IMG/VR virus record: IMGVR_UViG_3300042988_001268
Location: 1 to 58,152 of that record
Direction: 5' to 3' (one strand)
Origin: a virus
Length of the DNA: 58,152 nucleotides
This document shows positions 13,695 through 56,723 of the stretch, piece after piece (position 1 is the stretch's first letter; each line of letters begins with the position of its first letter). Made by a program: the position numbers and the translations under genes. Below the pieces are notes generated by a model. That model was not told where the DNA came from and ran no database searches. It worked only from the letters and a program-made list of their open reading frames with translations.

Positions 13695-16600
13695 TCACCT
13701 CTTGATCCGGTTGATGATCAGCCGGCCTGACATGAAAGAGTGGGTGTCCGTCGAATAGACGCTGCCCCGAAGCAGGATGGTGTACGAGCCGGCGACCACA
13801 ATCGGCAGAACGTACACCGGGTTGAGGTTCGCGCTGTAGCCGATGGTCGCCGAGGGCAGTTGAACGCTGGACGTAGATGCAGTCAGGAATCCTGTCCCGA
13901 CGCCAGCAGGAGCAGATGATAGGCGGAGTTCCGCACCCGTCCGCTTATAGGACATGCTCAAGGGGAGTTCGACTTCCACCGCAGCCTGAATGATCAGGAC
14001 ATCGCCAACGGACAGGGTCCGCGTAATCGACAGCAAATCTTCGTCCAGCCCGTCCGACACAGAGATCGGCGACGAGAACTGCGAGGTATAGACGTCGTGT
14101 ACAGCGCTCGCCTGTATGGCTGCTGTAGCCACCTTGTCGGTCTTCACCGTTCCATCGCTATTGAGGCCACTGTTAGCGGAGTTGGCGCCAGTGGCGACCG
14201 TGGCGGCAGAGGTGCCGTTGATCGTGCCAGTGATGTTGCCGGCGAAGGCGACCGTCGACGAAGGCTGGTAGCGCAACTCCCCGGTATTGGTCGGAGAGAC
14301 GATGGACGAAACCATGATCCCGGCCGCGTTGACGTTCGTGTCGACCCGGCGATAGGCCCGAACCCCGAACGTATAGTAGAGGTCCGCGGACATCCCGGAG
14401 AAAACGATGGCGCGCTTGTTGGCGGAGGTGACATAAACGGTTTCCAGCGTCGGGTTCCCGCCGATGCTGTATGCCCCGTTCGACGTCGACGAATAGATAA
14501 AGACGTGGAATCCGTCGATGTCCGCCTCGGTCCCGGCCCATGCCCATCGAAACACAATATCAACCGAACCATCGGTATTCGGGCTGTGATCGATGCCCGT
14601 CCCATTGGTCGGAACTGTTGGCGCCAGAATGGCATCCCCATTCTGATTGTTCGACGCATTGAAGTCCGCCGATGACTGGGCCACCACTGCGGCAGTCGTT
14701 CCGGCGATTTGCCCGGTATAGTTTGGCGTCGATGCAGGCTGGTAGCGCAACTCCCCGGTATTGGTCGGAGAGACGATGGACGAAACCATGATCCCGGCCG
14801 CGTTGACGTTCGTGTCGACCCGGCGATAGGCCCGAACCCCGAACGTATAGTAGAGGTCCGCGGACATCCCGGAGAAAACGATGGCGCGCTTGTTGGCGGA
14901 GGTGACATAAACGGTTTCCAGCGTCGGGTTCCCGCCGATGCTGTATGCCCCGTTCGACGTCGACGAATAGATAAAGACGTGGAATCCGTCGATGTCCGCC
15001 TCGGTCCCGGCCCATGCCCATCGAAACACAATATCAACCGAACCATCGGTATTCGGGCTGTGATCGATGCCCGTCCCATTGGTCGGAACTGTTGGCGCCA
15101 GAATGGCATCCCCATTCTGATTGTTCGACGCATTGAAGTCCGCCGATGACTGGGCCACCACTGCGGCAGTCGTTCCGGCGATTTGCCCGGTATAGTTTGG
15201 CGTCGATGCAGGACGGTACGGATGCTGGCTCGCTCCCGATGAAAACACAGCGCTGGACCGCATAATCCCAGCCACGTTGATGTCGGTATCGACGATCCGG
15301 AAGGCCCGGACAAAGAACGAATACCAGAGGTTCGACGGAAGGCCATTTATCGTAAAGGCGCGCTTCACTGCGGGCGCGGTAAATATCTGCTCCTCGGCGG
15401 GTGCTGAGTTCAGAACATACGTCGCATTAGAATCGCGAGAGGATCGGATAATGATTTCGAACCCATCGATGTCCGCTTCGGTGCCAGACCAACCCCACTT
15501 GAAGGTGATGTTGACCGACGAGTCCGCATTGCTGACTGCCGTGAATGCAGAACCGTCGCTCGCCACGGTCGGTGTCACCAGCGCCGTCGAGATCCGGTCG
15601 TTCGAGACATTGGTATTGGCGACCGACTTCGACAGCGTGACAGTGCGGCGATAGGAGAACCCGGTGTAGGCCCCACTCCCGGTTGCCACGATGGTCAGCG
15701 TCGCTGAGTCCTCGCCGGTGTCGAAGCCTCCGCTGATGGTGAAGGTCTGCCCGGAATAGGCCACCGTGAGCGTCTGAGGATTGCCGCCCGATGCCGTGGC
15801 GAGCGAGAAGTTCGAGGAGACATCGGTTCCATCAGGCAGGCGTGCGGTGAAGGAACCCGTCGCCAGGGCATAGCTCGTGACCGCATTGGAGCCATCGACC
15901 GGCAGGGTAATCATCGACTTCGTGAGCGCGACATCGAGCGCGTCCAGTCCGTCATCGCCTGGATCCCCGGTTGCCCCCTGCTTCGACTTCGACAGCGAGA
16001 ACGTCTTGTCGACCGTCACCCCCGAATGCGCGCCGCTTCCGGTAGCCCTGATGGCGAGGTTCGCCACATCGGTTCCGCTCGCGAGCCCGCCAGAGACCGT
16101 ATAGGTTCGGCCCGAGTACGAGACTGTCAGGCCGGCCGCGTTCTGCAGCGTCGACAGGGTGAAGCTCGACGAGACATCGGTCGCACCCTTGAAAATCTTG
16201 AAGTCGCCCGTGGCCCCAGAATAGCTGCTGACGACACCAGTCGGTCCTGCGACGACCTGATGGCTCTCATTGGTCAGGAACCCGGTGTAGGCATCCGAGC
16301 CGTCCTGGATCTTGGTGATGGTGATGAGTTCGCGCAGATCGTCGCAGTAGATCGCGACCACCACCCCCTTCGCCGAGCCGATCGCCGCGTCGAAGTTCGC
16401 CCCCGTCATGGTCACGGTGTCGCCGGTCTGGGTGAAGCTGTTCGCGTCGGGCACGTTCTGGGTAACGGTGCCGCTTCCCGTGAGATAGACGCCGGCGTCG
16501 ATCTGGGTGCCTGGGAGCCGGTACATCTTGACGATCAGGTCGGACGTCGTGTTGGTCTTGGTCGCCGTGAAGGTGACGCTCTGCCCGGCGATGATGACCC

Positions 16601-19022
16601 CATCCTTGTCGTAGGAGATCGTCTGTTGGCTGGGCGAGACCTGCAGCAACTTCGCGGGCGTGCCGGAGCGGGCCTTCGTGACCGAGAAATAGACCGTCAC
16701 CGTCGTACCGCGATAGGTGATCGGAATGCCGATGCGGCCATATTCGGCAGCAAGCGCGGTGATCCGGTAGAAGCCCTTCGGCTTGCCTGCGATGGGGGTA
16801 TTCGTGGCGGTGTTGACGGTGCCCGTGGCGTTCAGGCCGGTCGCCGCCGAGATTGTCGCCTCGGTGAGTATTTCGTTCCCGGTGCCATCATAGGCTGACA
16901 ACTGCCCCTCAGCGTTCCCCCAGTCTGATACCGTGCCGGCGGAGTCCGACGGAACAGTGGCATTCTGCGGGGTCATAAACACGTTGAACGACGGAGTTCC
17001 GTCCGAGACCTTGAAAACCGTCGCGCTCTCGGTGACGGATCCGCATGTGACCTGAAGGACTACAGCAACATACCCGCCAGAGATGGCTGAATTAAAGCTC
17101 GATCCGGAGAGGCTGATCGTAGAACCAGTCTGCGTGAATGCGTTAGAATCCGGCACGTTCTGGGTAACGGTCCCGCTGCCTGATAGATAAACTCCGGCGT
17201 CTATCGCAGAGAGTGTTCCTGCTGAATTTACCCGATATATTCTGACAATGAGATTTGCAGTGGTATTCTGCCTTTCGGTATAGAAATCAACAATCTGCCC
17301 GGAGATCAATGTGCCGTACTGGTCGTACTTCACTTGGCTTCTGGTGGCGGACATCCGGAACAGCGTCGCCCCGGCCCCACCAATCGCCTTGGATATGGAA
17401 TAGACCTTGTCGATGGTGACGTCGCCATAGGTCGCCCGGAACACCGCCGTACCCTGGCTGGCACTCATCGAGTTGACGGTATAGACACCAGTGGTCGCGT
17501 TGATGGTAACGTCGACCCCCGTCTCGGACTCAACCGCGAAGTCGCAGAACGCGGTGATGTCGGTCGATCCCTGGATGACACGGAATTCGCCACCGGCGCC
17601 GGTAAAGCTGGACACGGTGCCGGACGAATCCGCGACGACGGTATGGCTCTCGTTGGTGAGGTAGCCGGCGATGGCCGCGCTGAGCGGAGGGGTATGGTTC
17701 GACCAGTAGGCATCGCTGGCAGTCGGCCAATCCGGCGGCGTGTTGCCGGAACTCGGATCGGTCGCGATGTATAGCCAGCGCGAGCCATCCGGCCGGTCGA
17801 CGATGTTGCCCTCGCGATAGGTCTCGGCGACGTCAAAGAGACCGCGGTCGACCATCGTCGCCCCGAAGGCAATCTCGTCGGAGGTGTGCACCCGCCAGCA
17901 CCGCGCCGCGCCCATGGTGGTCTTCGCATAGGGAGGGCTGACATCCACCTCGTCGACTTGCGTCACCTGCGGGAGGGACTGCCCCTGTGCATGGAGGGTG
18001 ATCTGCGACGATCCGGACATCGTCACCGCCGACACGAAGAACTTGCCCGTAAGCGAGATGCCTACCTGCCAGTTGCAGGCCAAAGCGAGGCGCTTGGCGA
18101 AGTCGATGAACTTTTCCTGGTCCGTCACCACGACATTGATCGCCCAGGGGACGGCGGTGTTGAGCGCGTCGAGGGTATCGGTGTCGAGCAGTGAACTGGA
18201 TATGCCGGCGATGTCGGCAACCTGCGCGATGATGTCGGCGGTGGAGCGTGGTTCAACTTCCACGTCGCCGGTGATCACGCCATAGGCCGGAGCCCCAAGC
18301 CGGATGAGGCCAGAGGCGAGGCAGGTCGCCCATTCGCCCGGAGGGATCGTAGCCGCAACCAGCGCGGCATAATTGGCATAGTCGGCGTTGGCCGCAGGGA
18401 AGGCACTCCCGCGCTCGTACAGACCCGCAATCGCGCTCAGCGCATGATAGGCGGTGAACTGATAGACCGAATAGGTCGCATTGATCAGGACCGGCTCGAC
18501 GTTCTTGGCGTGGCCGAGGACGAGCGGCTTCAGCCTGTTCTCAATATCCTCCCCGCCTTCGATGTCCCCTGTCCCCTGATAGGAGAGGTTGAGCACGTTG
18601 ACCGAGAACGGCTCGGAATCCACCTCGGCTTGCAAGAGGATCGTCGGGTAGCGCCCGCCATAGCTTTTCACCCGGCCGGAGAAGATCGTCGTCCACGGCC
18701 AACTGTCGCCCGGCGTGCCGTAGTAGATCTCCATCGGAGCGGCATTCCAGATGAAGGTCGTGACGTTGGGATAGGTGTTTTCCAGAACCTTGAGGTTGAC
18801 CGGCACAGCCGCCGCCGCCGGCGTCACCGCCTCGGCGAAGTCACCATTCCACAGCGCAATGCCGATCGACGGCTGCGTGGTGATGGCCGGCTCCCAGATG
18901 TGGCTGTTGAGGCCGACGACACGACGGTCATCGACCGACGACAGATACACGTCCTCGCGCAGGCCGGTGTTGATGTTGAGCGGAGAGACCTTGACCAAGC
19001 AGACGACAGACATCGGGATCAC
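13695..19022 (-). CDS. Central tail protein / host-specificity fibre, 1775 residues
   Basis: Residues 1-400 look like the tail-hub part of a J-like protein (TWPTASDAYW, STADIIAQVADIAGIS, FIDFAKRLALACNW). From about 460 on come repeated Ig/Fn3-like domains with recurring GYLTNESHTVVADSSG, ATGSGAYTGFSYRRTV and EADIDGFHVFIYSS patterns. Two adjacent 158-residue blocks are identical, encoded by an apparently exact 474-bp duplication (14263-15210); a third block (about 15211-15620) is diverged. The C-terminal 150 residues are beta-rich and may bind the receptor. It starts in an ATGA overlap with the tape-measure stop. It should form the tail tip and decide host range. Confidence 0.8.
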   Translation of the reverse strand: MIPMSVVCLVKVSPLNINTGLREDVYLSSVDDRRVVGLNSHIWEPAITTQPSIGIALWNGDFAEAVTPAAAAVPVNLKVLENTYPNVTTFIWNAAPMEIYYGTPGDSWPWTTIFSGRVKSYGGRYPTILLQAEVDSEPFSVNVLNLSYQGTGDIEGGEDIENRLKPLVLGHAKNVEPVLINATYSVYQFTAYHALSAIAGLYERGSAFPAANADYANYAALVAATIPPGEWATCLASGLIRLGAPAYGVITGDVEVEPRSTADIIAQVADIAGISSSLLDTDTLDALNTAVPWAINVVVTDQEKFIDFAKRLALACNWQVGISLTGKFFVSAVTMSGSSQITLHAQGQSLPQVTQVDEVDVSPPYAKTTMGAARCWRVHTSDEIAFGATMVDRGLFDVAETYREGNIVDRPDGSRWLYIATDPSSGNTPPDWPTASDAYWSNHTPPLSAAIAGYLTNESHTVVADSSGTVSSFTGAGGEFRVIQGSTDITAFCDFAVESETGVDVTINATTGVYTVNSMSASQGTAVFRATYGDVTIDKVYSISKAIGGAGATLFRMSATRSQVKYDQYGTLISGQIVDFYTERQNTTANLIVRIYRVNSAGTLSAIDAGVYLSGSGTVTQNVPDSNAFTQTGSTISLSGSSFNSAISGGYVAVVLQVTCGSVTESATVFKVSDGTPSFNVFMTPQNATVPSDSAGTVSDWGNAEGQLSAYDGTGNEILTEATISAATGLNATGTVNTATNTPIAGKPKGFYRITALAAEYGRIGIPITYRGTTVTVYFSVTKARSGTPAKLLQVSPSQQTISYDKDGVIIAGQSVTFTATKTNTTSDLIVKMYRLPGTQIDAGVYLTGSGTVTQNVPDANSFTQTGDTVTMTGANFDAAIGSAKGVVVAIYCDDLRELITITKIQDGSDAYTGFLTNESHQVVAGPTGVVSSYSGATGDFKIFKGATDVSSSFTLSTLQNAAGLTVSYSGRTYTVSGGLASGTDVANLAIRATGSGAHSGVTVDKTFSLSKSKQGATGDPGDDGLDALDVALTKSMITLPVDGSNAVTSYALATGSFTARLPDGTDVSSNFSLATASGGNPQTLTVAYSGQTFTISGGFDTGEDSATLTIVATGSGAYTGFSYRRTVTLSKSVANTNVSNDRISTALVTPTVASDGSAFTAVSNADSSVNITFKWGWSGTEADIDGFEIIIRSSRDSNATYVLNSAPAEEQIFTAPAVKRAFTINGLPSNLWYSFFVRAFRIVDTDINVAGIMRSSAVFSSGASQHPYRPASTPNYTGQIAGTTAAVVAQSSADFNASNNQNGDAILAPTVPTNGTGIDHSPNTDGSVDIVFRWAWAGTEADIDGFHVFIYSSTSNGAYSIGGNPTLETVYVTSANKRAIVFSGMSADLYYTFGVRAYRRVDTNVNAAGIMVSSIVSPTNTGELRYQPASTPNYTGQIAGTTAAVVAQSSADFNASNNQNGDAILAPTVPTNGTGIDHSPNTDGSVDIVFRWAWAGTEADIDGFHVFIYSSTSNGAYSIGGNPTLETVYVTSANKRAIVFSGMSADLYYTFGVRAYRRVDTNVNAAGIMVSSIVSPTNTGELRYQPSSTVAFAGNITGTINGTSAATVATGANSANSGLNSDGTVKTDKVATAAIQASAVHDVYTSQFSSPISVSDGLDEDLLSITRTLSVGDVLIIQAAVEVELPLSMSYKRTGAELRLSSAPAGVGTGFLTASTSSVQLPSATIGYSANLNPVYVLPIVVAGSYTILLRGSVYSTDTHSFMSGRLIINRIKR
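14263..15210 (-). repeat. Tandem duplication, two copies of 474 bp
   Basis: The sequence from 14263 (GGCTGGTAGCGCAACTCC...) recurs from 14737 with a period of 474 bases, and I found no difference between the copies by eye. 474 is a multiple of three, so the fibre frame is kept, adding one 158-residue Fn3-like module. The identity implies a recent duplication or an assembly effect. Confidence 0.85.
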
Positions 19023-30125: not shown

Positions 30126-31013
30126 TCAGTTGGCGAGCGAGCGAGCTCGTTCGAAGACGGCCTCGAATGGGCCAATCCCGTCGATCAAGCCGTGGGTCAT
30201 GGCCTCATCGCCATGATACCAGTCGCCCTCCTGCGAGAGGACGCTGTCGACGGAAATTCTGCGGTTCGCAGCGACCAGTTCGGCGAACTGCTGGCGGGTC
30301 GATTCCACCCACGTCATCAGCTTCGCAACAGTCGCCTTGTCGGCGTGCTCATAGGGCCCGCCACGCGCCTTGCGTTCACCGGCGCGGATCATGGTGACGT
30401 TGATGCCACCCTGATCCAGCGCCCGGGTCATGTCGACCAGCAGCGTCCAGACGCCGATCGATCCGGCAATCCCGGTCTCCGGCATGTAGGTCTCATCGCA
30501 AGCCGAGAGGATCGCGTAGCCGGCAGAGCACGCCTGCTCATTGGCCACGCCGATGATCGGCTTCCCGCCATTGCGCGCCGAGTATGTCGCAATCTTGCGG
30601 GACAGGTCGAAGCACCCAGCAACCTCACCCCCGGGGGAGTCGACGTCCAGCAGCACGGCGCGAACCCCGCTGTCGTCCATCGCCATTTCGAGCAGCGTGC
30701 CGATCTGGTTGTAGCCGACCATACCGGAGTAGGGCCGCAGCCCCGACACGCGCTGGGCGAGAGAACCCTGCACCGGAATGATGGCGACGCCGTCGATCAC
30801 TTCGAAGCAGCGGTCAGCCGACCGGCCGCCATCCATCGCCTCGCTCGCCTGCTGCCGCAGTTCGACGACGCCAAGGCTCGTCCCGTCGACGCGGTTCAAC
30901 TTTGCCACACCCAGGTGATCGAGCAGCGCCGCGACCACGATCTCGCATTTCTGCGGGTGCAGCATCAGCGGCACGTTGAACAGGCGCTGGCCGATGAGCG
31001 GGTAATTCATCAC
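30126..31013 (-). CDS. S49-family head maturation protease, gpC-like
   Basis: 295 residues of the SppA/ClpP fold: VIPVQGSLAQRV, then LLDVDSPGGEVAGCFD with the oxyanion Gly-Gly, and the nucleophile Ser in NEQACSAGYAILSACDE. A basic Lys in the following ARGGPYEHADK region may be the general base, by family analogy. It cleaves scaffold and possibly portal during head maturation. Its start overlaps the portal stop (ATGA). Confidence 0.88.
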   Translation of the reverse strand: MMNYPLIGQRLFNVPLMLHPQKCEIVVAALLDHLGVAKLNRVDGTSLGVVELRQQASEAMDGGRSADRCFEVIDGVAIIPVQGSLAQRVSGLRPYSGMVGYNQIGTLLEMAMDDSGVRAVLLDVDSPGGEVAGCFDLSRKIATYSARNGGKPIIGVANEQACSAGYAILSACDETYMPETGIAGSIGVWTLLVDMTRALDQGGINVTMIRAGERKARGGPYEHADKATVAKLMTWVESTRQQFAELVAANRRISVDSVLSQEGDWYHGDEAMTHGLIDGIGPFEAVFERARSLAN

Positions 31014-32674
31014 TGGGCAGTCCCTCCGTTGGCGCCCTTGCGCTTCGCCTCAAGCGGCTTTCCGTCGCCGTCGTGATCCTGTTCGGTCGCACCACTGTCG
31101 CTGCCAGCCGCACCATCCGCGGCGGCATCGGCTTTGACGTTGTGGTTGACCGGAGAGAGGCCGCGCTTCTCGCGCTCGGCGTTGAACCACTGCTCCTCGG
31201 CCATGACATCGGTCGGGTCGCGGCCTCCTTCGAGGATGCACTCGACCGTCGACTTGCGACCGGCGGCAGTGTCGAGGTTGTTGGCGTTTGCCTCCTTGAG
31301 CGGATCCACCGATCCGCGTCCCGGACCGATCCATTCGGCCATGCAGATGGCCGTCTTGGATCGATAGAAGTTGGCGGGGCCGCCAGGCACCTTCACGTCT
31401 CCGTTCGCCACTTCCATCTCGAGCCAGGCTGCATAGACCGGGGTCAGGAAGTGCTGGGTGAAGAACCGACGGTCCTCAAGGAACGAGCGCCACAGTTCGT
31501 TAAGCAGCGCACGGGCCGATGAATAGTTGATCCCGGCCCAGTCCTGAGAAAGCTGCGGGTAGCTGATCCCCAGCGACCCAGCGACCTTCTGCAGCACGAA
31601 CCGGGCAAAGTCCGGGTAGTTGCTGTTCGGGCTTGACCGATCCGGCGTGACCACGTCCTCGTCAGGCAGGAGGTGCGTGACCTGCGCTCCGTCGACGATC
31701 ACCGGGGACTGCTCCCGCATGGTGACGTACTGGCTCACCCACGGGTCCATCGTCGAGGTGTCGGACGCCGGCGCAAGTGCTGCCTCAAGGTCTTCGGTCG
31801 TCCCCGGGGACTTGATGAAGATCGAGAAGATGGCGGACTTCAGCGCAGCCTGCACTTCGGCCCGGTCGACCCGGTCCAGCATCTTGGCCGGAACCATGAT
31901 CTCGGCAAGGCGGCTGATGCCCCGGTTCTGCTCCACCCGGCGGGGCGAGAAGACATGGATGAACTTCGCGCGCCCCGTGCGCCCACGGGCCGGGATGTAT
32001 TCCCAGCGCTGGTTGCTGAACCCGGCGTAGGGGTCGTTTGGATGCGTCGCCCGGATCCAGTACCCGATAGGGGCGCCGTTCGCGTCGTAGGCGATGCCAT
32101 CACGCAGCCGCGGCCCTTCCATCATCCCGGGCTTCGTCGAGATGCGTTCAGGCTCGATCAGCAGCAGGTTCGTCGTGTTGCGCAGGCCACGACGGTTGTC
32201 GCGCACCTCGGCGCACGCGGAGCCGTCGCGGACGTAACCGAGGTAGGCCAGCTTCGCGAGCGCGCCGAAACTGAATTGCTGCCTGGCATCCGAGCGCCGC
32301 TCGATGTCATTGGCCCAGACGTCGAACCGGGCCTGGACGTCGGCGGTCCACGCCATGCGCCAGTCATAGTCGCGGTTGAGCAGTTCGTGCTTCGGCTGTG
32401 CCGACAGGCGGATGTTGACGCCGATAACCGACTCGACCCGGCGATCGAGCCCGCCGTTGATCCAGCCATTGTTCTCGTCGAGGTCGCGGGCCCGGCCCAT
32501 GATCCGGTCGAGATCGTAGCCCCCCGACATTCCCGCGAAGCGCAGGTTGGGCGACCACCCGGAGAACTCGACAAGGTCATGCCGTGCCGCGTCCCGCTTC
32601 TGGTTGGTGCCGTCGAAGGCCAGCGCCTTGGCGCGCCCGCTGCCGAACTTGCGCTGGTAGTCTGCCGGTAGCAT
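31010..32674 (-). CDS. Portal protein, lambda gpB family
   Basis: 554 residues from MLPADYQRKFGSGRAKAL, four bases after GGAGGAA. An ATG at 32686 precedes that site. Typical Phage_portal_2 features: ARDLDENNGWINGGLDRRV, FDVWANDIERRSDARQQF, RERISTKPGMMEG-type region and EDLEAALAPASDTSTMDPW. It forms the dodecameric ring through which DNA passes. A disordered Asp/Gly-rich tail ends the protein. The start overlaps the stop of the gpW-like gene. Confidence 0.92.
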   Translation of the reverse strand: MLPADYQRKFGSGRAKALAFDGTNQKRDAARHDLVEFSGWSPNLRFAGMSGGYDLDRIMGRARDLDENNGWINGGLDRRVESVIGVNIRLSAQPKHELLNRDYDWRMAWTADVQARFDVWANDIERRSDARQQFSFGALAKLAYLGYVRDGSACAEVRDNRRGLRNTTNLLLIEPERISTKPGMMEGPRLRDGIAYDANGAPIGYWIRATHPNDPYAGFSNQRWEYIPARGRTGRAKFIHVFSPRRVEQNRGISRLAEIMVPAKMLDRVDRAEVQAALKSAIFSIFIKSPGTTEDLEAALAPASDTSTMDPWVSQYVTMREQSPVIVDGAQVTHLLPDEDVVTPDRSSPNSNYPDFARFVLQKVAGSLGISYPQLSQDWAGINYSSARALLNELWRSFLEDRRFFTQHFLTPVYAAWLEMEVANGDVKVPGGPANFYRSKTAICMAEWIGPGRGSVDPLKEANANNLDTAAGRKSTVECILEGGRDPTDVMAEEQWFNAEREKRGLSPVNHNVKADAAADGAAGSDSGATEQDHDGDGKPLEAKRKGANGGTAQ

Positions 32675-33216
32675 CAGTTCCTCCACGCCAGACTGATCGG
32701 CCGGCGGCGGGCGGTGCCGGCGGCGGTAGCGGACGCCGAGACCAGTTCGCTTTCAAGCACCCGGATGTGCTCGGTCAGTTCGCGCAGGCTCGGCATCTTC
32801 TTCGTGATGCGCCGGCCGTCTCGCCACAGTTCAGTGACGGCGTTTCCGGATGCGATCGTGATGCGCAGCGCCCGCGCCGCAGCAAGTTCGCGTGTGATCC
32901 GCTCGACGTCGGTCTCAGCCGCAGGCCCGATGCTGGTGTCGATGACATCGACGCCGAACGATTCTTCGAGCGTGCGCCCGCCATTGGTCGTGATGGCAAC
33001 GGTAAAGATCACGCGCTGCCCGTGGGTGCCGCCAGTCAGCCATACGCGCGTCACCAGATCCGAATTCGAAGCCGCAGAGGATTGCGAGGCGCCGCCAGCC
33101 TGCACCAGAGATGCGGTTACAGCGGTGATCGTCTCGCCCGAGCCAAGGAAATCGGACCAGTCATAGGCCCAGTCCTTCGTCTCGCTCGGGTCCAGGGTTT
33201 CGGTATAGACCTGCAT
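32674..33216 (-). CDS. gpW-like joining domain fused to a fibre-type N-terminus
   Basis: 180 residues. The first 110 resemble a phage fibre/adaptor beta domain (YTETLDPSETKDWAYDWSDF; RVIFTVAITTNGGRTLEESF). The last 70 fit gpW: DVERITRELAAARALRITIA, a short hairpin ELWRDGRRI, then LRELTEHIRVLESEL. In lambda gpW is 68 residues and stands alone between terL and portal; here the same place is kept with an extra N-terminal domain. Start follows AGGAGGTTGA. It probably seals the portal after packaging. Confidence 0.6.
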   Translation of the reverse strand: MQVYTETLDPSETKDWAYDWSDFLGSGETITAVTASLVQAGGASQSSAASNSDLVTRVWLTGGTHGQRVIFTVAITTNGGRTLEESFGVDVIDTSIGPAAETDVERITRELAAARALRITIASGNAVTELWRDGRRITKKMPSLRELTEHIRVLESELVSASATAAGTARRRPISLAWRN

Positions 33217-33224
33217 TCAACCTC

Positions 33225-34124
33225 CTAGCCTTCCGGCAGCAGCCGGGCATTGCGGGACGCCTTGATCAGGCGACCGCCCTGCGGAGCGTAAAGCGTGCGA
33301 CCGTTGATGAGCGCGGTCAGGGTTCGTGACGCCGGAGTCGGCGTGTAGATCATCACGATCGGCTCGGTGACGACATGCGCGTGGATGCAGTCGGCCGGGG
33401 AGATCGCGTAGAACGGTTCGATGTCAGGCTCGCCGGCCTGGTGGGCACTGAGCGCGTCGTCGACCAGCAGTGAGTATGTGACCGTCAGAACCGGCCGGGT
33501 GGAGACGTGCTGGTGGTCAACACTCTCCGGCGTTACCGAGACCCCGGCGTAGATCAGTGGCTCTCCGCTCGTGATCTGGTGGCTTGTGTCTGCCGGGACC
33601 AGAGAATTCCACGTTGCCAGCGATGGTTCGCCCGCCTCGTGGTCGTGCGCCCCGTCTCCTGGGATCAAGTTCATACTTGCCGCAAGGTCGACCAGATCAG
33701 CCTCATGGGCGTGCAGCGCCGAATTGACCGACACTGCATAGGCCGTCGAAAGCAGCGGCGAGGTCGCACTGTGATCGTGCAATGCCGATGCCAGCGTCAG
33801 GGTCCATTGCGCCGCCAATGTTGGCGAGGTCGCCTCGTGGTCATGGCTGGCGAAGTTGATCGAGACGCTTGCGCTGAAGGTGATCGTTGGGCTCGACGAG
33901 GCAAGCAGATGGCCCGCCTGATCGATGTAGAGCATCCGCGCCGTGACGTCCGGAGACGTCGAAGCGAGATCATGGAAGGTTGACCCTGGAGAGACCGTGT
34001 AGGCGCTCGACAGGGATGGACTGGTCGAAGTGGACCCCATGACCACACCGTCGACCGAAATAGTCCAGTGCGTGCTCCCAAGTGCCCCCAACGGCGTACT
34101 AGCTATGGGGCAAAAGCCGAGCAC
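33225..34124 (-). CDS. Repeat protein with ten 22-residue HxH-type modules
   Basis: 299 residues, GTG start at 34124 (weak). From about residue 35 to 253 it consists of ten copies of a 22-residue unit (one has 21) beginning SP or EP and ending in a His-rich tetrad such as HDHEAT, HAHEAD or HDHEAG. Hydrophobic alternation in each unit suggests a beta-solenoid or beta-stacked shaft with His pairs on a face, which might bind metal. The last 45 residues are basic (LINGRTLYAPQGGRLIK). It stands in a fibre cassette and is probably a fibre shaft. Family not recognised. Confidence 0.6.
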   Translation of the reverse strand: MLGFCPIASTPLGALGSTHWTISVDGVVMGSTSTSPSLSSAYTVSPGSTFHDLASTSPDVTARMLYIDQAGHLLASSSPTITFSASVSINFASHDHEATSPTLAAQWTLTLASALHDHSATSPLLSTAYAVSVNSALHAHEADLVDLAASMNLIPGDGAHDHEAGEPSLATWNSLVPADTSHQITSGEPLIYAGVSVTPESVDHQHVSTRPVLTVTYSLLVDDALSAHQAGEPDIEPFYAISPADCIHAHVVTEPIVMIYTPTPASRTLTALINGRTLYAPQGGRLIKASRNARLLPEG

Positions 34125-34129
34125 TTAAA

Positions 34130-34630
34130 TTACGTCCAGTATTCGTCGTTGGTATAGTCCGACGGAATATCCTCCATCGCTTGAATGGCAAAAGAATGGA
34201 GCCAGATTGGCTGACGAAATTCAGCGGATGCCAGCATTATTTCCTGCCATTCCAAAGCAGTTACGGAAACTGATCCGGTATTGGTAACAATGCTGATCCC
34301 CATTTCGCCGCGACCTATCGCTATGGCGGCCAGAGATGCGCTTGTAACCTCCGACCACCCCTCTAGGTCATCCTTGGTCGTGCCGATGTGGTGGACGCCA
34401 CGAGAGTCTCCGAAATCATAATCGAAGCCCAGGGCCAGGCGGCGTTCACGCTCGGCAACTACGCCATCCACCGTCCCAGGTGCTCTGGCTGACTCCGAGA
34501 ATGTGAGGCCGTCGTACAGCCACCCAATCTGGGCTTCTTCGCTATGGACCCAACCTTGTGATGCCGCGAAGCCACTTTCGGCCAAAGCGATGTTTACAAC
34601 GACCCCATTGTCGACAACCGCAAAGCGCAT
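34130..34630 (-). CDS. DUF4376-type tail-fibre assembly protein
   Basis: 166 residues from MRFAVVDNGVVVNIALA. The segment RRLALGFDYDFGDSRGVHH, then TTKDDLEGWSEVT, matches the DUF4376 pattern found next to tail fibres. An ATG at 34636 overlaps the fibre stop and could also serve. It probably acts as a chaperone or terminal piece of the Gly-rich fibre encoded just before it. Confidence 0.65.
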   Translation of the reverse strand: MRFAVVDNGVVVNIALAESGFAASQGWVHSEEAQIGWLYDGLTFSESARAPGTVDGVVAERERRLALGFDYDFGDSRGVHHIGTTKDDLEGWSEVTSASLAAIAIGRGEMGISIVTNTGSVSVTALEWQEIMLASAEFRQPIWLHSFAIQAMEDIPSDYTNDEYWT

Positions 34631-34635
34631 AGACA

Positions 34636-35796
34636 TCACCACGAATAGACGCGGCAGAGGCCGCCGCCGCCAGCCCCACCGGCGCCAGAATTGTAGCTAT
34701 TTGTGGATCCAGCTCCGCCACCGCCCCCAGCGGCATAGCCGCCATCGCCACCGGCGTAAGATGCGGCTGCCCCTTCGGCAGACCCGCCACCACCTCCGCA
34801 AAATGCCTGACCATCAGCCCCTACGGAAGATGAGCCAGCCGCACCCCCGCCTCCGGAAATTACACCCTGGGAACCACCGGCAGAAGGAACAAGGATCCCA
34901 TTACTGCTATTGATGCTTCCGCCCATACCTCCGCCGGCGCCGGCGTAGGACGACCCCTTGCCTGCGAATGCGACAAGAGATCCGATACCTCCACCCGCGC
35001 CTCCGCCGAATGCAGAATAGTAGCTTGCCGCATCCGATACTCCGGCGGCGCCGCCGCCGAAATGGCCAGGACCACTACTTACAACGGGATTTCCGCTAGA
35101 GAATGTTCCACCGCCGCTACCCCCGGCGATTGAACTTGATGTCGTGCCAGAGGATCCCCCGGATCCGCCATACGCGGTGAGAAACGACCCAAAAGTCGTA
35201 TTACCCCCGGCAGACCCAGCCGCGCCGCTGGTGTTATCCGAAGATACCGCCGCGCCACCACTTCCACCCGCTCCGATCGTCACAGTCTCGGTAGATGAAA
35301 GTTCTGATGCCTTGAATATCTTGAACTTATATCCCCCTCCCCCGCCTCCGGTGCCGCCTATTCTAGCAGAACCAGCAGAAGTCCCCCGACGCCCTGAGCC
35401 ACCGCCGCCCCCAGCACCCCAAATCTCGACCAAGACGAATGTGACATTGTCTGGCTTCGTCCATGTTCCGGAGGAGGTAAATTCCTGCAGGTCGCCCTTT
35501 ACGATGTCACTCTCGAGTGCGGTTATAGCAACCGTCGCGGATCCACTCAGGTTCAACGCGGCGTTGCTGTTCGAAGATCCGATGACACTGCGCGAGAGGG
35601 TTGTTCCGGAAGATGTGTAAGTCCCGGTTCCGACCTCCCATGCCGTACCATCTTCAATCAGGTAGGAGACGACGTCACCATTGCTGACGCCACCGTCGGC
35701 AAATGACTGGAAGCCGCTAGAGGCGGAGCCAAGGGTTATGGTTCCGGTTCCAGTAGTCGCCGTCGCGACCTTCACCCGGTTAGCTAGTTTTACCAT
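34636..35796 (-). CDS. Glycine-rich tail-fibre adhesin
   Basis: 386 residues from [14 protein letters not shown]. After a beta N-terminal adaptor (residues 1-110) comes a domain beginning [19 protein letters not shown] and continuing as dense Gly-rich stretches ([20 protein letters not shown]) to the end. This is the pattern of polyglycine-II sandwich adhesins (gp38-like or glycine-rich domain fibres), where variable loops between Gly helices bind the receptor. It probably contacts the host surface and may evolve rapidly. Confidence 0.7.
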
Positions 35797-36170
35797 TACG
35801 ATGGATCTGCGATCTCGATCTTCCACGTCCCGATGTCGACCGTGCCGCCCGCACCGACCGCCTGGCTCGCCGTGGTCGTGACGTACTGCAGCGCAGTACC
35901 GGAGACATCGAGCAGGGCCGCGTGCGTCACCGTCCCGGTCACGTCCACGGTCACGCCGGTCTTCGCCGCGATCGTCGTCTTGCGTCCGGAGGTGTCGCCA
36001 TTGGCGTGGGTGAAGTCGCTCGACGACATGGTCACGTCGGCCAGCGCATAGGTCGCGTTACCCTCGGTGTAGGTCGTCGGCTGAGAACTGCACACCGTCT
36101 GCCGGGTGCAATTATTCTTGATGATGTCGAGCGCGCCGTCGAGAACCGCGTCTGCTACCAGCTTACCCAT
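35796..36170 (-). CDS. Beta-rich structural protein of the fibre cassette
   Basis: 124 residues: helical start ([17 protein letters not shown]) then Thr/Val/Ala-rich strands ([34 protein letters not shown]) ending [11 protein letters not shown]. Small proteins of this type precede Gly-rich fibres in other alphaproteobacterial phages, to my knowledge. It may be a baseplate or fibre adaptor. The stop overlaps the fibre start (ATG of 35796). Confidence 0.55.
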
Positions 36171-53785: not shown

Positions 53786-54194
53786 TACACGGTCTCGACG
53801 GAAGAACTCGGCGCGGCCGGCGAGCAAGAGCGCGCCCTCATACTTGGCCTGGCTCCGCGGCCGTCCCTGCTACCTCGCGAACCACCGCGCCGGCGGCTGC
53901 GGCGAGGGCGATCCCCCGCGCAACTCCCCGGTGGAGGCCGCTCACGTCGACCACGGCGGCGACAAGGGCATGAGTACGCGCGCCAGTGACCGTTACGCTC
54001 TGCCCTTGTGCCAGCGCCACCATGACGAGCAGCACGGCAAGATCGGATCTTTCCGCCAGCGCGGCGGGTGGAAGTCGTTCGAACTCAAGTACGGGTTCAG
54101 CGCGACCACCGTGGCTGCTTCGTACTGGGCCAAGTGGCTGGGGACGACGATGGGCAGGAACTGGGCGGCGCGGAATGGAGGGGGTGAGGCATGA
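53775..54194 (+). CDS. HNH/DUF968-type nuclease
   Basis: 139 residues. YLAWLRGRPCYLANHRAG, EAAHVDHGGDKGMSTRASD, RYALPLCQRHHDEQHGKIG: the His/Cys pattern of DUF968/Ref-like HNH nucleases in phage recombination regions. C-terminal helix (ATTVAASYWAKWLGTT). It may cleave DNA during recombination. The end overlaps the methyltransferase start. Confidence 0.7.
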   Translation: MFVDTRSRRKNSARPASKSAPSYLAWLRGRPCYLANHRAGGCGEGDPPRNSPVEAAHVDHGGDKGMSTRASDRYALPLCQRHHDEQHGKIGSFRQRGGWKSFELKYGFSATTVAASYWAKWLGTTMGRNWAARNGGGEA

Positions 54195-55558
54195 GCAACC
54201 ACCGCGTCATCCATGGCGATTGCACGACGGTCCTGCGCGATCTCGCGCGCGATGCTGTCCTCGTCGACAGCGTCGTCACCGACCCGCCGTACCACCTCGC
54301 CAGCATCGTCGCGCGCCTCGGCCAGCCGGACAGTGCTCCAATCCAGTCCGGCGTGACCGGCGTCTATGCCCGCTCCTCGCAGGGCTTCATGGGCCAGCAG
54401 TGGGATGGCGGCGACGTCGCATTCCGGCCTGAGACCTGGCGCCGCGTGTTCGACGTGATGAAGCCGGGCGCTCACCTCGTCGCCTTCGCCGCGACCAAGG
54501 GCTATCACCGGATGGCCTGCGCGATCGAGGATGCCGGGTTTGAGATCCGCGACATGATCGCATGGCTCTACGGGTCTGGATTTCCCAAGTCTCATAATGT
54601 CGCCAATAGCATAGATAAGTTGAGCGGAGAGCCGGACAGGGGCGGACGGATCGCCGTAGCAAGTCGTCGTCACCCGGACGGAACATTAGAGCCTAATGGG
54701 CAAGAATTGCCGAAGTATGTGGCTCGGACAGAGCAGGGGAAGCCATGGGAGGGGTGGGGAACCGCCCTCAAGCCCGCCATTGAACCCATCATTGTTGCTC
54801 GGAAGCCGCTGAACGGATCAGTTGCAGAAAACTCGCTGCGCTGGGGTGTGGGCGCGCTCAATATCGACGCCTGCCGCATAGATCTCAACGGCGATTACAA
54901 GTGCAAGGCGAACGGACGGCCATCTCTTACCGGGCTCGCCGATGGCTACGACCCTGCGAATGCCAACATTGCCGATACGGTCGGCCGCTGGCCTGCCAAC
55001 GTCTGCCACGACGGCAGCGAGGAGGTGATGGACGCCTTTGCCGCCTACGGCGAGCGCGGTGCTATCGCCCCTGTCCACACTCGGGGCGCGGACAAGTTCC
55101 GCAACACCTATGGGGCATTCGCCGGCAACGTCGACGAGGCCGGATCGACCTTCCGCGGCGATAGCGGAACCGCAGCCAGGTTCTTCTACTCGTCGAAGGC
55201 TACCCAGGGAGAGCGCATCTTCGAATGCCGGGAATGCGGCGCCCATAGTGCCGGAAAGCCGTCCTGCGGCCACACCGACATGCGGACGCACCCGACGGTG
55301 AAGCCGATCTCGCTGATGCGCTGGCTAGTTGAACTGGTCACGCCCCCAGCAGGGCTCGTGCTTGATCCCTTCGCCGGGACAGGCACCACCGCCGCTGCGG
55401 CGCGCGAGGCGGGCTTCCAATCGCTCTCGATCGAGGCAGACGAGAACCATGTCCGCGACATCGGAGTTCGCCTGGGCATCGACGTTGCCGACTTGATCGC
55501 CGCCAATGTCCAATCCGCGCCGATCGCGCGCGACGAGCAGGGAGATATGTTCCTGTGA
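54191..55558 (+). CDS. DNA (N4/N6) methyltransferase, beta-class
   Basis: 455 residues. The catalytic motif DPPYHLAS is near residue 34 and the SAM motif LDPFAGTGTTAAAARE near 400, so catalytic before SAM: the beta order. A target-recognition insert (about 130-300) and a zinc-like segment (CRECGAHSAGKPSCGH) lie between. It could modify phage DNA against restriction. There is no partner nuclease. The stop overlaps the xis-like GTG. Confidence 0.88.
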   Translation: MSNHRVIHGDCTTVLRDLARDAVLVDSVVTDPPYHLASIVARLGQPDSAPIQSGVTGVYARSSQGFMGQQWDGGDVAFRPETWRRVFDVMKPGAHLVAFAATKGYHRMACAIEDAGFEIRDMIAWLYGSGFPKSHNVANSIDKLSGEPDRGGRIAVASRRHPDGTLEPNGQELPKYVARTEQGKPWEGWGTALKPAIEPIIVARKPLNGSVAENSLRWGVGALNIDACRIDLNGDYKCKANGRPSLTGLADGYDPANANIADTVGRWPANVCHDGSEEVMDAFAAYGERGAIAPVHTRGADKFRNTYGAFAGNVDEAGSTFRGDSGTAARFFYSSKATQGERIFECRECGAHSAGKPSCGHTDMRTHPTVKPISLMRWLVELVTPPAGLVLDPFAGTGTTAAAAREAGFQSLSIEADENHVRDIGVRLGIDVADLIAANVQSAPIARDEQGDMFL

Positions 55559-55923
55559 CCGCCCCGGCCCCTCTCCCCCCGCCGTTCTCGGTCCCCCAAC
55601 TCGCTCAGCGCTGGGGATGCTCCGAGGGCCTGATCCGCAAGCTCATTCGGAACAAGCGGTTGCAATGCTTCCGCCCGGGGAGCCTTATCCGGATCTCCGT
55701 AGCCGAAGTGGAGAGATTCGAATGTCAGCAGCAAATGACGACGCATGGAGCGTCCAACGATTCCGGGGAGGGTTCGCCCTCGTCTGGTGGGAAACCGCCG
55801 GCGGAGCCCGAACCCGCCGCCGAAGGCAACTCGCCTCGCAAGATCGGGCGAGCGCCGAAGCGGAAGCGCGCCGCCTCTGGCGCGATGGGGACGATTCTCC
55901 CTGGACCGTGGGCCGGATTATGA
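55555..55923 (+). CDS. Excisionase-like HTH protein
   Basis: 122 residues, GTG start overlapping the methyltransferase stop. Residues 12-58 have the MerR-like HTH_17 pattern: FSVPQLAQRWGCSEGLIRKL, then LIRISVAEVERFE. The rest is a loose Pro/Ser/basic tail that overlaps the integrase by about 200 bases. The coding frame may really end soon after residue 60 functionally. It probably directs excision. Confidence 0.6.
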   Translation: MTAPAPLPPPFSVPQLAQRWGCSEGLIRKLIRNKRLQCFRPGSLIRISVAEVERFECQQQMTTHGASNDSGEGSPSSGGKPPAEPEPAAEGNSPRKIGRAPKRKRAASGAMGTILPGPWAGL

Positions 55924-56723
55924 CCGCCTACCTCGCTTCCATCAGCCAGAAGCCTTCGCATGGGCGGAGGCAGGATGCGTGGAAGGCGATGCGATCGTTC
56001 TGGGAAAACGTCGACCCACGGCTGATTGATGAGCGCATGGCCCGCGATTACCGCGCCCGCCGCAAGGTCTCCGACGCTACGGCTCGATACGAGCTACTGC
56101 AGTTATCGACTGCCTTGGGCTGGGCGACCAGCGACGGACCCCACCTCCCGTCCCGGCCATCAATCTGGCTCCCGGCTCAGCCGGAGCGGAAGGTCCGCCA
56201 TCTCACCCGGGCGGAGTTCTCTCAGTTCTTCGCCGCGGTGAAGGCTGACCATGCGCGCCTCTACGTCATGCTTGGGATCTACACGATGGCCCGGCCGTCG
56301 GCGATCCTCGATCTCGAGTGGGACCGGGTGGACTTCATGCGCCGCCAGATCGACTTCACCCCGCCTGGCCATATCCGGACGGCCAAGCGCCGCGTCGTGG
56401 TCCCGATCAGCACCGCTCTCCTCCCGCACCTGCAGAAGGGATTCGAGGCAAGGACGACCCAGTGGGTGATCGAGCGCGGTGGCGCGCAGGTCGCCTGCAT
56501 CAAAAAAGCGTTCCAGGCTGCCAGTGAAAGGAGCGGTGTCCACGCGACCCCCTATACGCTGCGCCACACCGGAGCGGTCTGGGCGGCAGAAGCCGGGATC
56601 CCGATGTCCGAACTGGCGCAATTCATGGGCCATGACGACGATAGGACCACCCAGAAGCACTATGCCCGGTTCTCGCCGGAGCATCTGTCCCGAGTTGCCG
56701 ACGCGATCGGCCAGGTGGCCTGA
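55722..56723 (+). CDS. int: Tyrosine integrase
   Basis: 333 residues from MSAANDDAWSVQRFRG. An N-terminal arm-binding and core-binding part precedes the catalytic domain. Catalytic residues: Arg in MARPSAILDLEWDRVD near 190, His-x-x-Arg in YTLRHTGAVW near 280, then LAQFMGHDDD and Tyr in KHYARFSPEH near 314. It should recombine the attP just downstream with a host tRNA gene. The upstream start at 55506 would lie inside the methyltransferase gene and is rejected. Confidence 0.9.
   Translation: MSAANDDAWSVQRFRGGFALVWWETAGGARTRRRRQLASQDRASAEAEARRLWRDGDDSPWTVGRIMTAYLASISQKPSHGRRQDAWKAMRSFWENVDPRLIDERMARDYRARRKVSDATARYELLQLSTALGWATSDGPHLPSRPSIWLPAQPERKVRHLTRAEFSQFFAAVKADHARLYVMLGIYTMARPSAILDLEWDRVDFMRRQIDFTPPGHIRTAKRRVVVPISTALLPHLQKGFEARTTQWVIERGGAQVACIKKAFQAASERSGVHATPYTLRHTGAVWAAEAGIPMSELAQFMGHDDDRTTQKHYARFSPEHLSRVADAIGQVA

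Follow-up and report, generated by a model that had tools for sequence, protein, structure and literature searches.

Fibre I of podophage GP4 reportedly consists of five Gp80 dimers, linked through an elongated rope protein, on a ring of Gp77 with 15-fold symmetry. A 15:12 mismatch in GP4 is mentioned in a passage of the DEV paper (PMC10925440). The cyanophage A-1(L) has five neck fibres, bead chains about 100 nm long, on a pentadecamer, and the terminal bead has a carbohydrate-binding module (PMC10966104). His pairs (HxH) are found in other phage-type fibres, since octahedral Fe is held in the trimer HxH sites of R-pyocin fibre shafts and of T4 gp37 (PMC6116203). In the viral DNA analysed here, a stretch of 58,152 nucleotides (the window), a homologue of Gp77 (PF23148, 8jou_D) is encoded beside a putative fibre gene, as in the GP4 fibre I, and this putative fibre gene encodes an array of 22-residue units, many of them with HxH. 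The family to which this protein belongs is real and was not described before, and it is most likely a component of beaded neck fibres.

The repeat gene and its surroundings in the window

The repeat gene is located on the minus strand (33225..34124), has a GTG start and encodes a 299-aa protein made of the repeats and a 40-aa tail without an extra domain. The self-identity of the protein is 22.4% at lag 22, 21.6% at lag 44 and 17.6% at lag 66, compared with a highest value of 15.8% at any lag in 500 shuffles, and its BLOSUM autocorrelation at lag 22 gave a z of 13. Four consecutive HxH at an exact spacing of 22 aa occurred once in the window and in 0 of 100 dinucleotide shuffles. The array comprises 11 phase-locked units (residues 18-259; 33348..34073, minus strand), six of which carry the complete HxH (residues 94/96, 116/118, 138/140, 160/162, 204/206 and 248/250), four others retain a single His (residues 51, 72, 182 and 228, that at 51 being one residue off register), and the first has neither. 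An earlier note, made from the letters of this DNA, had described ten modules of the formula SP/EP-x19-H-x-H-E-x-x with His pairs at fixed places. The 22-residue period and the phase-locking are confirmed, but the units number 11, the pairs are incomplete as given above, and the formula is an average rather than a strict rule, because SP/EP is present in most units only and an E follows the HxH in three (94, 138 and 160). The C-terminal tail (SRTLTALINGRTLYAPQGGRLIKASRNARLL; 33228..33347, minus strand) shows a ~10-residue spacing of the type 'R-x-hydrophobic-x-hydrophobic', and such Arg-spaced tails are common to many family members.

Downstream of the repeat gene, at a distance of 8 bp, a single ORF (32674..33216, minus strand) fuses Gp77 (residues 9-89) to the head-completion protein gpW (residues 109-160). 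It matched PF23148 (E 3.6e-19) and PF02831 (E 4.6e-5) in Pfam, and 8jou_D (E 7.5e-4) and the gpW structure 1hyw (E 0.016) in the PDB, and the fusion suggests that the neck-fibre ring and the head-completion ring can be one protein. The next gene encodes the portal protein (31010..32686, minus strand; PF05136, E 1.1e-81), which places the cassette in the neck/head-completion region; the repeat gene adjoins portal/gpW and lies away from the large tail genes. These neighbours suggest a neck fibre anchored on the Gp77 adaptor instead of the tail needle to which the earlier note had likened the protein. On the other side, the stop of a gene for a 170-aa protein (phrog_27624; 34130..34642, minus strand) lies 5 bp before the start of the repeat gene. 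Further upstream is a gene for a glycine-rich, tail-fibre-like protein (34636..35826, minus strand; phrog_863, E 1.9e-25; PF21722, Gly_rich_2), which may be another fibre part, and which lies between the repeat gene and the gene of a 124-aa protein (35796..36170, minus strand), hereafter the partner and proposed bead subunit. Gp80 was not found in the window.

Two further regions of the window were recorded. A 1775-aa tail protein (13695-19022, minus strand) contains a 474-bp direct tandem duplication of 99% identity together with a third, diverged copy (14253-15212, to 15339); DUF7359 (PF24058) matches it three times, and a fibre domain seems to have been duplicated here very recently. A phage integrase and an N6/N4 DNA methylase are encoded at 55506-56723 and 54191-55558, respectively, and the phage is therefore probably temperate.

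The repeat family and its genetic linkage

By searching IMG/VR with a blind pattern of four HxH spaced 22 aa apart, plus a consensus scan, 79 family ORFs were obtained in about 75 contigs. The pattern by itself does not define the family, because it also catches fibres of the PTR type (PF12789, Phage tail repeat like) and unrelated or out-of-frame 66-bp DNA repeats (L063, L240, L158 and similar loci); the 118 genome stretches that it matched contained 0 family members under the filter, most of them being low-complexity His-rich or out-of-frame. The unit consensus, xHx-L-x-V/I-x-D-A-x-H-x-H-x-A-D/E-N-x-x-L-T-Q, was derived from 1,014 units, and percentages drawn from these are lower bounds because some units come from a second His register. 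Units follow one another every 22 residues, now and then stretched to 23-26 by inserts. The N-terminal part is LamG-like or Gly-rich in several members, LamG being found in L002 and L269. The window protein had no match in Pfam, NCBIfam or the PDB and only a chance-level match in PHROG, and its HxH-dense relatives likewise gave no match in these four libraries except borderline ones judged spurious. No named fibre family of Pfam, PHROG or NCBIfam was therefore matched, in agreement with the earlier note, which knew of no named family with such a repeat. Among 50,697 GenBank phage records, tblastn found a single credible relative, the protein XAI95683.1 encoded by Microcystis phage Mae-JY22, which is annotated as hypothetical. 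A likely role is proposed below for a repeat family that has no name in the libraries searched, is nearly absent from cultured phages and recurs in environmental viral contigs.

The partner was found by tblastn near the repeat gene in 51 of 75 family loci, always on the same strand, at a median gap of 239 bp, and on either side of it (upstream in 29, downstream in 22), so the pair is kept and its order is not. Using an HMM, the partner was detected in 49/74 family loci vs 1/99 control viral loci, a conservative comparison because the controls include at least one overlooked family member (L051) and three loci with 22-aa repeats; they were taken from the same pattern scan and so are enriched for HxH. 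About a third of the family loci had no detected partner, many of them being short fragments. Reciprocally, when 79 viral loci were chosen by the partner alone, in-phase HxH repeats were present in 39 and any 22-periodic ORF on the same strand in 57, counts that are not fully independent, since some loci are near-identical contigs. In these partner-chosen loci, lag 22 was the peak in 50, whereas the remaining lags between 14 and 29 each peaked in 2 at most. The partner was also found in 4 of 754 bacterial genomes, sampled from the classes to which one Bosea and one Delftia genome belong, and a 22-periodic ORF adjoined it in all four. The 124-aa partner is thus a second gene that predicts the presence of the repeat protein. 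It weakly matched phrog_3758, 'virion structural protein', and its hhalign comparison with the Gp80 profiles gave a P of 0.004 and a probability of 8%, compared with at most 0.7% for shuffles. Its kinship to Gp80, judged from profiles, is suggestive only, and for this reason it is named a proposed bead. In the loci L305 and L308 (10001-10776), a Gp80 homologue lies directly after the partner gene, and neither locus yielded a 22-residue HxH protein.

Gp77 was found next to the repeat gene in 20/74 family loci vs 3/99 controls, the Gp77-bearing controls themselves holding 22-periodic proteins. At the 20 loci it was on the same strand, within 700 bp and often with an overlap of a few bases. Rare fusions join the components directly: in L089, the HxH repeats are fused to a Gp77 domain (E 4.2e-8), and in L276 to two Gp80 domains (PF23140, E 3.4e-53). 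Gp80 occurs at one family locus only. Other 22-residue repeats were observed in the Gp77-bearing loci L080 (6311-7612) and L050 (1643-3136), namely 'GTFTLTGAAADLLLTRELDAEF' and a form of the HxH unit with QxN in place of the His pair (QPNTSTA).

Fold of the unit and the exchangeable His pair

AF2 monomer models showed about three short strands per 22-aa unit, arranged as a solenoid, with a pLDDT of 65 for 8 units of L107 and 57 for the window protein. Foldseek of these models against the PDB returned nothing convincing, with a best E of 0.27 and TM below 0.45; pectate-lyase matches, at E of at least 0.27, were dismissed. Since unrealistic beta-solenoids are known from AF2 on repeat sequences (PMC11795689), and given the low confidence and the lack of a PDB match, the modelled fold was not accepted as proof of a solenoid. 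It could be argued that the protein is a monomeric beta-solenoid rod with internal His ladders, a reading of the fold that is compatible with the rope role considered below, and the three strands per turn and a borderline NosD beta-helix match of L073 point that way; in view of the pLDDT values, the poor fold matches and the false solenoids known from repeats, we regard such a rod as doubtful. Of the beta-solenoid or stacked-hairpin shaft that the earlier note had suggested, a regular beta-type repeat in a virion fibre is thus retained, and the solenoid itself, though drawn by AF2, is weakly backed.

An i, i+2 His pair recurs in this repeated, shaft-like protein. In array-internal units of the family, the first His (H0) was kept in 708/714 and the second (H+2) in 657/714, being mostly Gln where changed, and the HxH arrays are under strong selection for the first His. 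Joint loss of the pair was tried as a test of metal binding and rejected, since H0 is almost never lost, which leaves such a test powerless (1 joint loss vs 0.5 expected). The partner-linked 22-residue proteins indicated that the pair is replaceable, as LxL, LxV, QxQ or VxV stand at the two His positions in units that are otherwise conserved, e.g. ADALLSLAAESPALTQHNILAV. The simplest reading of this exchange is that positions 0 and +2 of the unit point both side chains into a buried core. The exchange also means that the repeat fold does not require metal, because these sister proteins, at the same genetic position, have LxL, LxV or QxQ at both positions. By analogy with the Fe sites of trimeric fibres (PMC6116203), metal binding by the HxH versions is plausible; the earlier note's comparison with metal-bound His-rich shafts is fair as an analogy. 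If the rope reading set out below is true, nature has, in swapping HxH for LxL, already run an experiment on the role of metal in phage fibres.

A proposed beaded neck fibre, its alternatives and its known counterparts

With moderate confidence, we favour the repeat protein as the rope or shaft of a beaded neck fibre of the GP4 type. In such a fibre, the Gp77-gpW fusion would form the ring at the neck and attach the fibre to the head-tail joint. The rope would consist of the arrayed 22-residue beta units, and the 124-aa partner would be the bead that decorates or links it. Some members would add distal lectin domains, and HxH at positions 0/+2 may hold one metal ion per unit, as in trimeric fibre shafts. 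Counting against this role are the single family locus with Gp80, the weak likeness of partner and Gp80, the roughly one third of loci that are partnerless, the low confidence of the structure models, the weak period of the BcepMigl rope candidate described below, and the LamG lectin-like domains of L002 and L269, which would also suit a distal adhesin. If the rope reading is true, beaded neck fibres are far commoner than the two solved cases suggest. A more detailed version is conceivable but less probable: the fibre would be a widespread, previously undescribed beaded neck fibre of mostly uncultured phages, in which each unit docks one bead subunit, the number of units sets the length, and a single metal ion in every unit stiffens or locks the ropes that carry HxH.

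An ordinary trimeric tail-tip fibre shaft that holds metal at HxH, comparable to T4 gp37 or the PTR fibres, would make the Gp77 neighbour incidental. PTR fibres and the R22Y tail fibre also show HxH 22 aa apart, Fe is bound by HxH in trimeric fibres (PMC6116203), and the genes upstream include one for a Gly-rich tail-fibre protein. However, the repeat gene sits beside portal/gpW, away from the large tail genes, the linkage to Gp77 and the partner recurs in many contigs, and the family shares with PTR no more than the His pair. PF12789 gave no match for the window protein and none above the cut-off for other members (best L090, 14.1 bits vs a cut-off of 27), and with HxH masked the matching register ranked third of 22, so PTR membership was rejected. 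We therefore consider a tail-tip shaft unlikely. Less likely still is that the protein forms the distal carbohydrate-binding tip of a neck fibre, an analogue of A-1(L) gp80 in which the repeat is a mere spacer and not a bead-carrying rope; the LamG/ConA-like domains of L002 and L269 and the carbohydrate-binding module of the A-1(L) terminal bead speak for it, but the window protein has only repeats and its tail, and in the L089 fusion the repeats are joined straight to the adaptor. That the protein decorates the capsid or forms a head fibre is highly improbable: the partner's weak matches, phrog_3758 and phrog_240, belong to the head and packaging category, but phrog_240 is the Gp80 family (11/11 Gp80 sequences match it), named a GP4 fibre protein in Pfam, and Gp77 is a fibre-tail adaptor.

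Returning to the neck-fibre rope, a close counterpart is the cassette of Mae-JY22, which combines a protein of the same repeat family with a copy of the partner (53% identity) and a homologue of Gp77; unlike in the window, its Gp77 is not fused to gpW and a beta-helix tailspike-like gene is nearby. T4 gp37, the R-pyocin fibre and P2 gpV share with the family the i, i+2 His pair, an octahedral site in those trimers, but in one to seven occurrences and without a strict 22-aa array. PTR has the same period, HxH at equal spacing and a place in phage fibres, but another sequence between the His pairs (GLQxALDGKA). The Anabaena myophage A-1(L), with gp82-gp81-gp80 on the pentadecameric gp5, resembles the proposed fibre in being a neck bead-chain fibre on a 15-mer with a lectin-type domain in the system; it differs in having beads chained head to tail and no repeat rope, and no 22-aa period was found in its gp81 and gp82.

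The GP4 fibre I differs from the locus of the window in that the adaptor of the window is fused to gpW, the phage has a tail-terminator-like gene, and the bead-sized partner is not recognisable as Gp80 (PF23140, 8jou_a). The repeats differ too: the GP4-type, Gp80-linked neighbours are tandem repeats of period 20, whereas that of the window has period 22 with HxH. In the GenBank phages C72C1, ct2t2046 and MEP401, the gene after the Gp80 bead encodes a tandem-repeat protein of period 20. The period-20 proteins that follow Gp80 beads at the GenBank phage loci L383 (2892-3722) and L384 (2894-3709), annotated 'serine-rich adhesin' and 'tail protein', are candidate ropes. BcepMigl gp57, a candidate GP4-type rope, gave a weak lag-20 signal (z 3.4) and matched no PDB chain. 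The likeness to GP4 lies in the rare fusions of HxH repeats to Gp77 and Gp80 and in the position of the repeat gene next to a bead-sized gene: the HxH protein beside its partner occupies the place that corresponds to the period-20 protein after the Gp80 bead.
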